Assembly (NCBI GenBank): GCA_944384205.1
Contig: CALWSL010000004.1
Span: forward strand, 122,840 to 186,839
Length of the DNA: 64,000 nucleotides
Source of the DNA: an uncultured Acetatifactor sp.
GTDB lineage: Bacteria; Bacillota; Clostridia; Lachnospirales; Lachnospiraceae
Reading direction: 5' to 3'
In this document: positions 1 to 7,469 of the stretch, piece after piece
Position numbering within the stretch: position 1 is the stretch's first letter
Layout of the letters: each line of letters opens with the position of its first letter
Notes under the pieces: model-generated
What the model was told of the DNA's origin: nothing
Database searches by the model: none
Seen by the model: the letters and a program-made list of their open reading frames with translations, nothing else
Made by a program: the position numbers and the translations under genes

Positions 1-1210
1 ATTACCACGAGAGGTGATGGAGGAACATTAAAAGCAAGACCTAATTTGGGATATACAGTATATTATAAACCTGATACGAAAGATAAGATTGCAGTTATGG
101 ATTACGACATTACGTTAGCAAAAAAATCCAATGAGATTGGAAAAGTATATTCAGACAATTTGGAATTAATTTGTCAAGGATATGTACCTATTCGTCCACC
201 GATGGTACGTGGTAATTTAGGATGTTGGACGTGGTCATTGGAAAAATTTAATGAAGAAAAAGAGAATATAATTATTACAGGAAAAGAAGGAAAGTATGCA
301 GTAAAAAAGCGTACTTTTGTAGACAAAAAAGATATTATTGAAAATGATGGTAAATTTCAGTATGTTTCTAAAGTTGAGAGCAATTCTAAAAGTATTATAG
401 AATTTTCAACAAATGAAGGAACAAATTTACTCTCGGATATTATGAAGCATGGTGGGTTATTTAGCAATCCGAAAAATACTAACATGATACAGTATTTCGT
501 TGAATTGATTAAGGATCAAGAATGCACAGTACTTGATTTTTTTAGTGGTTCTTCAACAACAGCACAAGCTGTAATGCAACAAAATAACTTGGATGGAGGG
601 CATAGAAAATGGATTATGGTTCAATTAGATGAAAAATGTGCAGAGGAAACGGAAGCATACAAATATGGATTTGACAATATACCAGAGATTGCTAAAGAGC
701 GTATACGCCGAGCAGGGGACAAGATAAAGCAGGAACACCCGGACTCCAACCTTGACATAGGATTTAAAGTATTCAGGGTTGCAGATACAAATATTAAATG
801 GAATTCACTGATAGATATTGGACAGATTGATATAGCACAGATGGAAACATCACCGGACACAATAGATTTTATGCCAAATGTAAAGGATGTGGATGTAGTG
901 TATGAAATAATGTTAAGGCAAAGAAATGTACCATTATCATCAAAAATCGAACATATATTCTGGGGGGGGGGGGTACTCTCGTACTTATCTTTATGCAGAT
1001 AGTTACTTGGTTTGTCTTGAGACAAAAATTACAGAGGAATTAATTGATAAGTTGGCAGGGATAGACCCGTTGCCAATAAAATTCATTTTCAGAGACTCGG
1101 CATTCCAAGATGATATCGCAATGAAGGATGAAACATTCCGTAGACTAAAAGCGCTGATAGAAAAAAATAATGGAATGAATAAGATGGCATACACAGTAGA
1201 GTTTATCTGA
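1..1210 (+). CDS. Type III DNA methyltransferase (Mod), 5'-truncated by window and frameshifted at a poly-G run
   Basis: This is the C-terminal two-thirds of an N6-adenine methyltransferase of the type III (Mod) kind. The frame is open from base 1, so the start and the DPPY catalytic motif lie before the window. The SAM-binding motif DFFSGSSTT is visible near bases 535-560, preceded by a stretch that should be the target-recognition region. From there to the end it closely follows the intact neighbour at 1283-3145, as far as MLRQRNV. At a run of 12 G (962-973) the frame shifts and stops at 1002 after a short foreign tail. The missing end (RTYLYAD...YTVEFI) continues in the next frame to TGA at 1210. 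One G fewer, or two more, would restore one protein. This may be a phase-variable gene held off, a decayed gene, or a sequencing error in the homopolymer. Confidence 0.82.
962..973 (+). repeat. Poly-G tract (G12) inside mod
   Basis: Twelve consecutive G lie in the 3' part of the first methyltransferase gene. With 12 the frame ends at 1002; with 11 or 14 it would read through to 1210 and give a C-terminus matching the second Mod. Mononucleotide runs of this size are known to change length by slippage and to switch mod genes on and off in other bacteria. Here the switch is inferred, since only one length is visible. Confidence 0.85.
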
Positions 1211-1282: not shown

Positions 1283-3145
1283 ATGGAATATAAAAAAGTA
1301 AATCAGAGTATGAACAACATTGTAAATGAGCAGGTTAGAAAATTGGAAAGTTTGTTTCCGTCAGCGGTGAAAGATGGAGAAGTGGATTTTCAGGCTCTGA
1401 AGGAAGAATTAGGTCAGTTTACAGAGGTTGGAAATGAAAAATACGAACTGACATGGGCTGAAAAAAAGAATGCGAAAAAGATTGCACAAGAAGATATTGT
1501 GGGAAAGACACTGAAATTCGTTCCTGAAGATAGTAAGAATGCAGATGCGACAGAGAATCTTTATATAGAGGGTGATAATCTGGAAGTATTGAAGTTGCTT
1601 CGCCAGAATTACTTTGGTGCGATAAAGATGATTTATATTGACCCACCGTATAATACAGGAAATGATTTTATTTACAATGATTCTTTTGATATCTCTCAAG
1701 CTGAAAGTGATATTGCAGAAGGGGATATGAATGATTTGGGAGTTAGATATACTGTTAATACAAAATCGAAAAATAGGTTTCATGCTAAGTGGTTGAATAA
1801 TATTTATGCGAGACTAAAAATAGCGAAGGATTTACTGACTGAAGATGGTGTTATTTTTATTTCGGTTGATGACAATGAAGTTACCAATTTGAGAAAACTT
1901 TGTGAAGAGATATTCGGAGAAGATAATTTTGTTGCACAGTTTATCTGGAAATCTAAATTAGGAAAGGTAGGTACTACGTCCACAATTTCTACGGTACATG
2001 AATATATATTGTGTTATTCAAAAAGTATTAATAATGTACAATTTAAAATGATTGAGACTCCGAATGATGGAAGAAAAGAGAATTTGAGACAATGGGGAAT
2101 TGCTGATAGACGAGAGGATAGACCGTCTATGTGGTATCCTATTAAAATTGATGGGATTGAGGTATATCCATATAAGGAGGATGGTACAGAGGGAAGATGG
2201 CGAGTTGGCGAAGATATGGCAAAGGAATTGTTAGCTGATGGAAAACTTGAACTTGTTAAGAAAGGAAGTACATATAATATATATAGAATTTTTGATTCTG
2301 GAATATCTGTTACACCATATGACACGTTACTTTTAGATGATATTGGCACGACAGCAAGAGGGGCGATTACCCTTAAGGCTTTAGAGATGTCCAAGATATT
2401 TGACTATTCTAAGCCGGTAGAGTTGATAAAGCATTTTTTGGTGTTAGCCACAGACAAAGAAGATGTAATATTGGATTTTTTCTCTGGTTCTTCAACGACA
2501 GCGCATTCTGTTATGGAATTAAATTCAGAGAATGATACAAGTAGAAGAAAGTGGATAATGATTCAATTAGGAGAAAAGACAGATGATAAGTCAGAGTCTT
2601 ATAAAAATGGATATTATCGGATTTGCGATATAGGAAAAGAACGAATCAGACGTGCAGGCGAAAAGATTAAATCAGAACATCCAGATGCAGATATTGATAT
2701 AGGATTCAAAGTATTCCGAGTAGCAGACACTAATATCAAATGGAATTCTCTTATGGATGCAGGGCAGTTAGACATGACACAGATGGAGTACAATCCAGAC
2801 CTTATAGATTTTATGCCAGATGCAAAAGATGTCGATATTGTTTACGAAATCATGCTTCGCCAGCGTAATGTAGCATTATCTGAGTCTTTAGAACTGTTAT
2901 CTGACATTGGTAATCGTACATATCTCTATGCAGGCAGTTTCCTTGTATGTCTCGAAACAGAGATTACAGAGGTATTGATTGGAAAGCTGGCAGAACTTGA
3001 CCCTTTACCGATTAAGTTTATTTTCAGAGATTCTGCTTTTAAGGATGATATTGCCTTAAAGGACGAGACTTTTAGAAGGTTGAAAGCGCTCGTGGAGAAA
3101 AATGCAGGAACCAATAAACCTGTTTATACTGTAGAGTTCATATAA
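1283..3145 (+). CDS. Type III restriction-modification methyltransferase subunit (Mod)
   Basis: A 620-residue adenine-N6 methyltransferase that would methylate the recognition site of the type III system and give specificity to the Res subunit downstream. The catalytic motif DPPYNTGNDF is at residues 120-129. The SAM-binding motif FSGSS is at about 400-404, so the order is catalytic motif first (beta class, as in type III Mod). The roughly 270 residues between them hold the target-recognition domain. The ATG at 1283 is chosen because GGAGG sits at 1273-1277; a TTG frame begins further upstream without such a site. The C-terminal 250 residues closely resemble the preceding truncated mod, but the recognition regions differ, so the two would probably recognise different sites. 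A hairpin terminator follows at 3189-3215. Confidence 0.93.
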   Translation: MEYKKVNQSMNNIVNEQVRKLESLFPSAVKDGEVDFQALKEELGQFTEVGNEKYELTWAEKKNAKKIAQEDIVGKTLKFVPEDSKNADATENLYIEGDNLEVLKLLRQNYFGAIKMIYIDPPYNTGNDFIYNDSFDISQAESDIAEGDMNDLGVRYTVNTKSKNRFHAKWLNNIYARLKIAKDLLTEDGVIFISVDDNEVTNLRKLCEEIFGEDNFVAQFIWKSKLGKVGTTSTISTVHEYILCYSKSINNVQFKMIETPNDGRKENLRQWGIADRREDRPSMWYPIKIDGIEVYPYKEDGTEGRWRVGEDMAKELLADGKLELVKKGSTYNIYRIFDSGISVTPYDTLLLDDIGTTARGAITLKALEMSKIFDYSKPVELIKHFLVLATDKEDVILDFFSGSSTTAHSVMELNSENDTSRRKWIMIQLGEKTDDKSESYKNGYYRICDIGKERIRRAGEKIKSEHPDADIDIGFKVFRVADTNIKWNSLMDAGQLDMTQMEYNPDLIDFMPDAKDVDIVYEIMLRQRNVALSESLELLSDIGNRTYLYAGSFLVCLETEITEVLIGKLAELDPLPIKFIFRDSAFKDDIALKDETFRRLKALVEKNAGTNKPVYTVEFI

Positions 3146-3188: not shown

Positions 3189-3215
3189 AAAATCCGAGAA
3201 GGCTTCTCGGATTTT
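3189..3215. terminator. Hairpin between mod and nuclease gene
   Basis: Perfect 13-base arms (AAAATCCGAGAAG / CTTCTCGGATTTT) around a single G. The A-run on one side and T-run on the other make it a candidate bidirectional intrinsic terminator. If active, it would separate mod expression from the nuclease and res genes, or cut it down. Confidence 0.6.
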
Positions 3216-3262
3216 AGATGATGAGGAACTGGTCCAACTTGTATTTTGGGGAGGTGTTAAAA

Positions 3263-4381
3263 TTGAATGAAATAGAAAGAATAGACAATAATGATATTAT
3301 GGGAAAATATCAAAAAACAGAAAACATATTGAATGATATACAAAACATAATTGAGGTATCTCAAAAAGAAGCATATCGGGCTGTGAATACTATTTTGACA
3401 CAGAGAAACTGGCTCATTGGATATCGGATTGCAGAGGAAGAAATGAGAGGGGAAAACCGTGCAGAGTATGGTGCGAATATCATAAAAAAACTCTCGAAAG
3501 AATTGACTGTAAAATATGGAAAAGGCTTTACCAAAACGAATCTATACAATTTCTATATGTTTTACAAGTATTTTCCTCAGATTTTCCACACAGCGTGTGG
3601 AAAATCTGAGAGAGTGTTATCTTGGTCGCATTACAGGACATTATTGCAGGTAAAGGATGATGCAGCCCGCAGTTGGTATGAAAAAGAAGCATATGAGCAG
3701 ATATGGAGTGTACGTACATTGCAACGAAATGTCGATACTCAGTATTATCATAGAATATTGCAGTCACAAAATAAACAAATTGTGGAACAGGAGATGAAAG
3801 AGAAAACAGCAGATTTTCATAATGATAAGCTAGAGTTCATCAAGAATCCTGTAATTGCCGAGTTTTTAGGCTTGTCATCCAATATAGATTTTACGGAAAC
3901 GCAGTTGGAAAGCTGTATTATATCCAATATACAGAAATTCCTTATGGAATTAGGCAAGGGTTATGCGTTTGTTGCCAGACAGCAGCATATTCATACGGAG
4001 AAACAGGATTATTATATAGACTTGGTGTTTTATAACTATATACTAAAATGTTTTGTATTGATAGACCTTAAAACAAGTAGAATTACACATTAGGATGTAG
4101 GTCAGATGGATATGTATATCCGTATGTATGACGAATTAAAAAAGTCAAAGGATGACAATCCTACGCTAGGCATAGTTCTCTGTTCAGAAACAGATGAAGA
4201 TATTGCAAAATATTCTGTACTGCATGGAAATGAGCAGCTATTTGCAAGCAAATATAAATTATATCTGCCAACTGATGAGGAACTTCGAGCAGAAATTGAA
4301 ACACAAAAAGCAATGTTTTATCTCCAACAGCAGGAAAAGGAACAAAAACAGAATGATGAAGAAGGTGAGATAGATGGCTAA
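3263..4381 (+). pseudogene. DUF1016/YhcG-type PDDEXK nuclease, interrupted by an in-frame amber codon
   Basis: The two halves (to 4090 and from 4094) lie in the same frame, separated only by TAG at 4091-4093; together they make about 372 residues, the usual size of DUF1016 (YhcG) proteins. The first half has the N-terminal DUF1016 region and the PDDEXK-like core: D in YYIDLVFY, then IDLK with K at residue 270. The stop falls seven codons later, where the family normally reads HQD(V/I)GQM, so a single CAG-to-TAG change explains it. A TTG start at 3263 is preferred because GAGGT precedes it; an ATG at 3218 is also in frame. It lies between mod and res, a place where this family is often found, and its last codons overlap the res start. 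The truncated product keeps the acidic and lysine residues but loses the conserved Gln. Confidence 0.8.
3576..3610. repeat. Perfect 16-bp inverted repeat inside the nuclease gene
   Basis: Arms 3576-3591 (CTCAGATTTTCCACAC) and 3595-3610 (GTGTGGAAAATCTGAG) are exact reverse complements around a 3-base loop, within coding sequence that reads QIFHTACGKSE. Because of the symmetry the opposite strand reads almost the same peptide. It resembles a REP-type palindrome carried in a gene; its origin cannot be told from one copy. Confidence 0.8.
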
Positions 4382-7300
4382 TCGTATTACATTCCAATTT
4401 GAGGACGACCTTGATTATCAAATGCAGGCGATTCACTCTGCTGTGGAATTGTTCAGAGGCTTGTCAAGACATGTAGATGGCATTTACAAATATAACCGAA
4501 TACATGATGTGACACAAGGGAATCCAATTAGAAACAATGATATTGTTGTCGGCAGCAGACTGCTTGAAAATCTGCGTGGAGTACAGCTATCCAATAATTT
4601 GTTTGCAGATAATATGCTGGCAGATGGTAATAATTTTACGATTGAAATGGAGACGGGTACCGGAAAAACATATGTGTATCTGCGTACTATATTAGAGTTA
4701 TATAAGGAATATGGCTTCAAGAAGTTTATGATTGTTGTTCCGTCTATTGCTATTCGTAAGGGCGTTGAAAAATCTATGGAACAACTGACTGACCATTTCA
4801 AACGATTATATAGTATTGATATTTTGAAGCACAGCTTTATTTATGACAGCGATAATCCAAAGCAGATTAGTTCCAAACTGGTAGAAAGCAATGATTTGAG
4901 CATCTGCGTATTGAATATTCAGGCTTTTAATAAAGATACCAATAAAATCCGTAAGGAAGATGAATATGGGCAGAACCTGTGGGAAGATATCAAGTATATC
5001 AAGCCGATTGTCATAATTGATGAGCCACAAAAGATTGAAGGTACTGCAAAGAAGAAGTCTAAATCATTAGAGGCTATTGAAGAGTTACAGCCTTTGTTTA
5101 CCCTGCGGTATTCTGCTACACATAAGCAGTTATATAATCAGATTTACAAATTGGATTCCTATGCAGCATATCAGAAGGATTTGGTAAAGAAGATTGTAGT
5201 GAAGACAGTCCACGGGGTAATTCCAAAGGATTATCCTTATGTCAGATATTTGTCCTTTACTTCAGATTTGAAGGCAAAGATAGAAATTTTTTCACAAGAG
5301 CAGGGCGGTACAATCCGCTTTAAGACGTTTCATGTCGGAGGTGGGGCTTCGCTTGAAGAACTTTCTGGCGGATTGTTACAATATAAGGACTATCGTATTG
5401 CAGAAGAACCTCATAAACTCAAACCTTTGTCCATTGCAACAAAGGATGGTTTCTTTGCTTTGGAGCAGGGACACAGTAATCATGAGATTGAGAAGAATGA
5501 GGCTGTGCGTATTCAAATAAGATTGGCGATTCAGAATCATTTTACAAAGCAGCTTAATATTATTCGTCAAGGAAGAAAAATAAAAGCACTGACATTGTTT
5601 TTTATTGATTCGGTAGATAAAGTGCGTGATGATACCGCTTCTGATGGACGTGGCGAATACCTGCGTATTTTTGATGAGGAATATAAAAAGTATGTAAGTA
5701 CACATGCGCACGAACTGGAGCAGAACAAAGAGTATTTTCCTGATTACATGAATGTTCAGGCTGTCAGAGAAGGTTATTTTGCCAGAGATAAGAAAAATAA
5801 TGCTGTAGATGTTGATGGATGGGATTCATCCCTTGATGAAAATAATATGAAGATTAAGGCAAAGTCGCAGGAGGATATTGACCGGGGAATCAGTTTAATT
5901 CTGGAAAAGAAAGATGAACTGATTTCCTTTGATGAGCCATTGGCATTTATCTTTTCTCACTCTGCCTTAAGAGAAGGTTGGGATAACCCGAATGTATTTA
6001 CACTTTGTACCTTGAAGTCTGGCGGTTCAGATATTGCAAAAAAGCAGGAGATTGGTCGAGGATTAAGACTGCCGGTTGATATTACCGGCAATCGTTGTAT
6101 TGATAAGAGAGTCAATGAATTGACAGTCATTGCCAACGATTATTATGACCACTTTGCAGCGGCACTTCAGAAGGATTTCAACGATAATATACATTTTGAT
6201 AAGAATGAAGTTACTGCGGAAATCTTGATTTCTACGTTGAAGACAGCGGGAGTTCCTGCAAAGAAAATTACACCGGAACTGGTGGATGCTTTTAAAGAAG
6301 AACTGGTATCAGCGGGCGTCATGAATTCTGATAATATACTGAAAGGTTCTCCTGACCGGATTACAAAGATTTTTGACAACATGGTATTTGTCAATGATAC
6401 CTTAAATGAACATGCAGATATTATCAAAAAGCAGTTCAAAGAGCTGATGGTTCAGAAAGGTACGAGAAAAATTGAGATTACCAATGGCGACAATGAGCCT
6501 TACGAAAATAAAGTGAGAGCCTATGTGACTGAAGGTGAGTTCCAAAAGATTTATGTCGGACTTCGCCAAAACCTGATGAAGCGTACTATTTACAGGTTCA
6601 AGATCGATAAGGATAAATTTATAGAAGACTGTATCTTTGAAATAAATAAGTCTTTGCTGTTCAAAAAAGCGAAAAACGAGTATAAGGTGGAAACGGGTAG
6701 AGCAAGGTTCAATGATTCTGCAATGTTTGTTATGGAAGAAACTGCCTGTGGTGATAAGCAGCTTGAAATAGAAATCAGTTCTGACCCAAAATCTGATTTT
6801 GAAATTGCAAATTTCATTATGCACCATACAATGCTGCCCCGTTTGGCTATTTTCAAGATTATCCAGGGAGTTGATAAACGGGAGCTATTGGATAATCAGG
6901 ATATTTTGGATGAAGTAACTCAGCTTATTCTGAAAAAACTGAATGATATTAAAGCTGCCAACATTACTGCTTATGAAGTTATCAATGGTTATGAGTTGGA
7001 TGAAAGGAACATCTTTGAACTGGATACCATATCAGAAGAAGACTTTGAACAGGAATGGAGAGTATTCAGAGCCAAGTCCGACAGAAGCTCTGCTATGAAC
7101 GAATACTACAAAATGGATAGTGCGGGTGAGGCTGAATTCGCTCATAGACTGGAGAATAATACAAATGTGCTGTTATTTACCAAGTTGAAAAAGGGTGGAT
7201 TTGTGATTGACACGCCATATGGTAACTATAGTCCTGACTGGGCAGTTGTCTGTAGAAAAGAAGCATTAGCTGACGCATCCGTGGGAATCTATTTCATTGT

Positions 7301-7469
7301 AGAGACAAAGCCGGGAAAGTCAGAAGTGAATCTTCAAGATGTAGAACGCAATAAGATTCGTTGCGGTAAGCTTCATTTCAAGGCAGTATCTGACCAGATT
7401 AAATTTGACTGGGTAAATAGTTACGAAGATTTCCGCAGTAAATTTGGAGTGGCTGAAAGTGCTTCTTAG
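4374..7469 (+). CDS. Type III restriction endonuclease subunit (Res), SF2 helicase-nuclease
   Basis: A 1031-residue motor and nuclease subunit of a type III restriction enzyme, which with Mod would translocate or slide on DNA and cut unmethylated sites. Walker A (TGTGKT) is at residues 94-99. The helicase motif II is DEPQ at 216-219, the variant typical of type III Res, and the later helicase box QEIGRGLRLP is present. A C-terminal PD-(D/E)xK nuclease reads PDW at about 954-956 and ETK at 977-979. The length matches the family. The ATG overlaps the last bases of the nuclease gene by 8 and has AAGGTGAG just upstream, so the two are translationally coupled. No break is seen, so Res with the second Mod could form a complete enzyme. 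Confidence 0.95.
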   Translation: MANRITFQFEDDLDYQMQAIHSAVELFRGLSRHVDGIYKYNRIHDVTQGNPIRNNDIVVGSRLLENLRGVQLSNNLFADNMLADGNNFTIEMETGTGKTYVYLRTILELYKEYGFKKFMIVVPSIAIRKGVEKSMEQLTDHFKRLYSIDILKHSFIYDSDNPKQISSKLVESNDLSICVLNIQAFNKDTNKIRKEDEYGQNLWEDIKYIKPIVIIDEPQKIEGTAKKKSKSLEAIEELQPLFTLRYSATHKQLYNQIYKLDSYAAYQKDLVKKIVVKTVHGVIPKDYPYVRYLSFTSDLKAKIEIFSQEQGGTIRFKTFHVGGGASLEELSGGLLQYKDYRIAEEPHKLKPLSIATKDGFFALEQGHSNHEIEKNEAVRIQIRLAIQNHFTKQLNIIRQGRKIKALTLFFIDSVDKVRDDTASDGRGEYLRIFDEEYKKYVSTHAHELEQNKEYFPDYMNVQAVREGYFARDKKNNAVDVDGWDSSLDENNMKIKAKSQEDIDRGISLILEKKDELISFDEPLAFIFSHSALREGWDNPNVFTLCTLKSGGSDIAKKQEIGRGLRLPVDITGNRCIDKRVNELTVIANDYYDHFAAALQKDFNDNIHFDKNEVTAEILISTLKTAGVPAKKITPELVDAFKEELVSAGVMNSDNILKGSPDRITKIFDNMVFVNDTLNEHADIIKKQFKELMVQKGTRKIEITNGDNEPYENKVRAYVTEGEFQKIYVGLRQNLMKRTIYRFKIDKDKFIEDCIFEINKSLLFKKAKNEYKVETGRARFNDSAMFVMEETACGDKQLEIEISSDPKSDFEIANFIMHHTMLPRLAIFKIIQGVDKRELLDNQDILDEVTQLILKKLNDIKAANITAYEVINGYELDERNIFELDTISEEDFEQEWRVFRAKSDRSSAMNEYYKMDSAGEAEFAHRLENNTNVLLFTKLKKGGFVIDTPYGNYSPDWAVVCRKEALADASVGIYFIVETKPGKSEVNLQDVERNKIRCGKLHFKAVSDQIKFDWVNSYEDFRSKFGVAESAS

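Follow-up and report, generated by a model that had tools for sequence, protein, structure and literature searches.

The window, by which we mean the whole 64-kb stretch of DNA analysed here, opens inside a restriction island whose genes follow in the order SNF2-type helicase, DUF4391, mod1, mod2, a DUF1016/YhcG gene interrupted by a TAG codon, and res, after which come two genes that we take, from their sequences, to be uvrB and uvrA. The helicase is called by PADLOC as HKD+Snf2 (PDLC01075); its identity, and those of DUF4391 and DUF1016, are assignments by family search only. The first methyltransferase gene, mod1, begins outside the window, at position 7995 of L005 (G000:C4:114000-131000), with 602 codons ahead of the G run described below. 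Its portion inside the window before that run (positions 1..961, plus strand) encodes part of the methylase domain and the recognition region, and is recognized by Pfam as N6_N4_Mtase and by PADLOC as MTase_III (PDLC03634). Next comes mod2 (1283..3145, plus strand), an intact second Type III methyltransferase gene with a different central region and without a G run. The first part of the DUF1016/YhcG nuclease-family gene (3218..4093, plus strand) is closed by an in-frame TAG at 4091-4093, and its remainder (4106..4381, plus strand) continues in the same frame and still matches the family; the copy in one relative, L045, is unbroken, at 370 residues. The restriction subunit gene, res (4374..7469, plus strand), encodes a protein with an endonuclease domain, matched by ResIII, RE_endonuc and REase_III (PDLC03647).

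The genes have the hallmarks of a Type III system: mod1 and mod2 both encode a Mod with an amino-methyltransferase domain, as judged by Pfam and PADLOC, DPPY and the FxGxS-type motif DFFSGS are present in mod1 and in the alignment with relatives, and the product of res, which adjoins mod, combines a helicase with an endonuclease domain. Systems of this type methylate one strand, and cleavage requires Mod and two sites. The two mod genes are alike at their ends and unlike in their middles, an arrangement set up for the exchange of recognition regions. Close to where mod1 begins, 590 bases (L005:8050-8639) are 78% identical to mod2 at window positions 1337-1927. Inverted repeats were also seen between mod2 and the DUF1016 gene (3189-3215; 96% self-match on the opposite strand) and within the latter (3576-3610; 91%).

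The G run at the frame break of mod1

A run of 12 G occupies positions 962-973 of the plus strand, a putative slippage switch, and the frame of mod1 is lost within it. An upstream frame, already open at the left edge of the window (1-1002), is terminated at the present run length by a TAG stop at 1000..1002 (plus strand); the downstream frame (926-1210) is one position off the upstream one, and the two overlap at the run. The part of mod1 after the run (980..1210, plus strand) comprises 76 conserved codons and a stop, belongs to the C-terminal domain and, with 12 G, falls out of frame. Codons on both sides are otherwise open, and the DPPY and DFFSGS motifs of mod1 both precede the run. The 76 residues past the run match mod2 at 82%. 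The initial annotation had described the run, worked out how its length would set the frame, and remarked on the likeness of the peptide beyond it to the intact neighbour. The likeness is borne out by this comparison and, as the frames are one position apart and overlap at the run, the frame arithmetic is correct. The true length in the window may be off by one, and the run would be no less length-sensitive for that.

A chance origin is not expected for a G12 in this operon. A first-order model predicts about 9e-5 runs of at least 12 G on the coding strand of its 12.3 kb, and the second-longest G run in the operon is 5. On both strands of the 64-kb window it is the sole run of at least nine G or C, and only two such runs exist in the 3.15-Mb genome, the second being a G10 in C17 that is not inside the open frames of at least 80 residues listed at that locus. 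As a milder control, shuffles of the whole window gave a mean of 0.63 G9 matches, and the 4 overlapping matches of the real sequence were attained in 2 of 100. Of 138 genomes of the genus, 79 nevertheless contain runs of at least nine G (counted as overlapping 9-mers, both strands), so that the run taken alone is a lead that says little, and comparison with relatives bears the case. Such runs are numerous in some genomes of the genus, for example G561, G544, G579 and G582; thirty of the places, one from each of 30 genomes, were inspected for nearby open frames, and may include other length-switched genes.

Relatives of the island and selection beyond the run

When a collection in which each species is represented by a single genome was scanned for relatives, 22 loci emerged. 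In two of them, from the Lachnospiraceae metagenome assemblies L044 (isolate SUG216) and L045 (Robinsoniella sp. NALB_7861_18), the mod genes stand in tandem. A third tandem relative, G075, is of the same genus as the window. In all three, mod1 carries a G run at the corresponding position, and the comparison of lengths, made among four genomes of different species, gave 12 (out of frame) in the window, 9 (in frame) in L044, 9 (out of frame) in L045 and 7 (in frame) in G075, the values for L044 and L045 being the consensus of metagenome assemblies. In L045 there is one base fewer directly past the run, and its phase relation differs; its frame break may therefore include an ordinary deletion. 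The rest of mod1 is open in all three. Several features of a simple-repeat phase-variable mod are present at this site, namely a repeat within the ORF whose length sets the frame, and a range of lengths in relatives, here of different species, of which some are in frame and others out. A variable middle with conserved ends is also evident, measured as identity on the two sides of the run rather than over a delimited recognition region: mod1 of the other three genomes is 50-52% identical to that of the window before the run and 93-95% after it. The helicases of these three islands share 85-95% identity with that of the window.

By tblastn and run scans, the G run was found in 4 of 4 tandem-mod islands (window, L044, L045 and G075), in mod1 only, and was absent at the site in 14 of 14 single-mod loci. 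Seven of the latter came from the scan (L042, L043, L046, L047, L050, L051 and L052) and seven were added to it (L071, G277, G428, G648, G639, G132 and G664), as were G075 and the window to the tandem set. The 13 scan loci left uncounted are L053, which ends within mod; L048 and L049, which have no helicase and DUF4391 and whose res match is weak or absent; and the distant L054-L063, where gene order was not considered. A helicase lies beside 8 of the 14 single-mod loci and is absent at L043 (where the contig begins near), L047, G277, G428, G132 and G664, so that not all represent the full island. The mod of G132, which has a C7 on the coding strand, is apparently broken by a frameshift at another place, and G664 has a G8 outside mod. 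Judged from their sequences, the four tandem-mod islands probably form one lineage, and the contrast of four to fourteen does not therefore count independent events.

In a tree of the last 76 residues (21 rows, without the mod2 of G075), the window's mod1 has the other three copies with a run as its closest neighbours, at path lengths of 0.053-0.067 against 0.32 for the next row. A clean group of the four was not recovered in this tree, the long branches of G428 and G132 falling among them; the tree has 3 changes, a single change occurred in 2% of 200 bootstrap trees, and 78 of 500 label shuffles were as low. Searches of 397 family, 138 genus and 392 order genomes returned only run-less copies beyond the window's own genome and G075. 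No match to the island at the DNA level was found in plasmid and phage collections; a plasmid protein search gave a single Rhizobium record (35%), and viral contigs yielded one close relative of the island, L071, which has a single mod without the run. The run pattern appeared in none of 24 loci with distant viral-contig mods, one of which is on the contig of L071. Among the scan loci, the mods of L048 (Prevotella) and L049 (Roseivirga) match mod1 at 48% and 52%, respectively, over long stretches that include the middle, which hints that the recognition region has been shuffled across phyla.

Beyond the run, purifying selection on the 76 codons is strong. In all six pairs of the four genomes their dN/dS is 0.014-0.036, at dS of 0.94-2.14, as counted by the Nei-Gojobori method with our own script, the largest dS values being near saturation. 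The pair in which both copies are out of frame (window and L045) gave 0.029, and the pair in which both are in frame (L044 and G075) gave 0.028; for 63 codons ahead of the run the range is 0.074-0.151. These low values argue that codons which, at the present length, cannot be read from the mod1 start have been kept as protein code. The run itself also appears to have been kept. GGG makes up 9-16% of glycine codons in three of the four run-bearing operons, and the retention of repeats of so scarce a codon at dS of about 1-2 suggests that the run is maintained in its own right.

Consequences predicted for Mod1

Where the run cuts the protein was examined on a model of the intact Mod1 of L044. 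An earlier 12-sequence model (mean pLDDT 53.6) resolved the C-terminal domain too poorly for use, and a 29-sequence model, with a mean pLDDT of 78.7, took its place. The latter shows a weak linker at residues 521-535 followed by an alpha/beta domain at about 536-653, with block means mostly of 77-90. The residues encoded by the run (573-575) are predicted to fall at a turn between strands 568-573 and 576-582, a position at which an extra or missing glycine could be tolerable. The closest fold matches of the model are the Mod chains of EcoP15I in 4zcf (E 1.9e-40 and 1.5e-39, TM 0.59-0.70), and the overall rmsd of 9.4 and 11.5 indicates that the domains are not placed alike in the two. In sequence, phmmer aligns L044 Mod1 with EcoP15I Mod (4zcf) at E 5.5e-62, with residue 508 pairing with 508, where the alignment ends.

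In the reported EcoP15I structure, the C-terminal domain of Mod spans 539-644 and makes extensive contacts with Res in one Mod subunit, and the Mod dimer forms by the N-terminal and methylase domains, the latter also touching Res in the contacting subunit (PMC4490356). By homology, a Mod1 cut at the run would retain the dimerizing, recognition and catalytic parts and lose about two-thirds of the Res-contact domain. As the loss would fall on a domain that in EcoP15I touches Res, an 'off' state need not mean loss of methylation, and might instead mean loss of Res docking. Carried further, this leads to a proposal that we regard as speculative and rather unlikely, that switching separates restriction from methylation, in that a shortened Mod1 would still methylate its sites and yet be unable to dock the shared Res. 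Were this so, a second restriction specificity would be toggled with the genome never unprotected, a safer arrangement than the usual on/off Mod. Against it, the loss of two-thirds of the C-terminal domain may destabilize the cut protein, the methylase domain of EcoP15I Mod also contacts Res, and in the published account of the MmyCI system methylation by Mod is strongly raised by Res (PMC3498834).

A length switch, its alternatives and known systems

We consider it highly probable that changes in the length of the G run, by slipped-strand mispairing, act as a switch in mod1, the first of the two Type III mod genes standing in tandem ahead of a single res. Runs of differing length and phase at the same site, together with purifying selection downstream, fit the expectation for a reversible length switch, and are unlike the remains of an old dead gene; the phase switch proposed in the initial annotation thus gains support from two copies in frame and two out, and from agreement of every pair compared. 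Run lengths that restore the frame would give a full-length Mod1 with a complete C-terminal domain, and the present length would give a Mod1 cut in the middle of that domain and ending in a short alien tail. As mod2 has no run, Mod2 would be fixed, one specificity remaining constant and a second being gained or lost by switching. We infer for this scheme that slippage occurs in living populations, that Mod1 pairs with the shared Res, and what the cut product would be able to do.

Other accounts of the frame break deserve weight. Long G runs are difficult to measure, and in the data reported for Bifidobacterium breve an annotated G11 made up 37% against 60% for G12 (PMC9187656), so that an assembly or consensus error, the real length being in frame and mod1 of this strain intact, might be suspected. 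We think this improbable: the run is itself unexpected by chance in the operon, relatives carry other lengths, and L045 is out of frame at 9. A miscall would in any case change the on/off state assigned to the window's copy and not the existence of the run. That mod1 is dead, its frameshift a one-way loss at a mutation hotspot, could draw on the two of four copies that are out of frame and on the nonsense codon in DUF1016 of the same operon, and a very recent loss in each copy would still fit the dN/dS values. Yet the coding sequence on either side of the run, the 76 codons past it included, is otherwise uninterrupted, and selection beyond the run is equally strong in the out-of-frame and the in-frame pair, which leaves such decay with very little probability in our estimate. 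Homopolymers are in general capable of inducing programmed slippage by RNA polymerase or the ribosome, which would yield both products at every length without genetic switching; a fixed length would then be expected, whereas lengths and phases vary among the relatives, and we hold this to be very unlikely here.

In a mod of the phasevarion type, switching alters the expression of a set of genes. Should the G run act as the length switch favoured above, colonies of such isolates may differ in methylome and in sensitivity to phages and plasmids. Two features would be unusual: the run lies in one of tandem mods before a single res, and what it cuts is not the recognition or catalytic part but a domain that touches Res in EcoP15I. 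They raise the question of whether restriction specificity can be added or removed by slippage while methylation persists. A described case in Lachnospiraceae or Clostridium was not found in the literature listings searched, which did not extend to the repeats surveyed in Type III mod genes by Atack 2018 (10.1093/nar/gky192); in a 2026 review of methyltransferase regulation, 'homopolymer' does not occur and 'Clostrid' occurs once (PMC13076061).

Switching of Type III mod genes by poly-G is known, and the nearest counterpart is modH of Helicobacter pylori, in which a poly-G run inside the gene is likewise downstream of the recognition domain. Its reported lengths are 9-15 among strains, in or out of frame (PMC3230613), and the run is described as lying 104 bp past the recognition-domain region, the cut protein being termed inactive (PMC5700931). 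The run described here differs from that of modH in lying in the C-terminal domain, past DPPY and DFFSGS, in the first of tandem mods, and in Lachnospiraceae. ModS of Streptococcus suis is also a repeat-driven Type III mod, from a Gram-positive organism and with several alleles of different specificity; according to the account consulted, its GAGCA repeat is at the 5' end of the gene (PMC6265453), in contrast to a homopolymer in the last part. The AG runs of Mycoplasma mod genes resemble the present case in that a repeat at one site is found across several species with varying lengths and frame states, whereas the dinucleotide repeat of MmyCI in M. mycoides is reported to start at mod nucleotide 320, in an operon of one mod and one res (PMC3498834). 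A parallel from a Gram-positive gut commensal is B. breve, in which intragenic slippage is reported for G11 and, more weakly in culture, G10, with a proposed polarity on downstream genes; the G-tracts of that report are in pilus genes rather than in restriction-modification genes (PMC9187656). Overall, the pairing of mod genes in tandem, the placement of the run in the C-terminal domain and the group of hosts are best viewed as marking a variant of described cases, whose novelty is not proven, and one that would add gut Lachnospiraceae to the organisms in which poly-G runs switch Type III methyltransferases.
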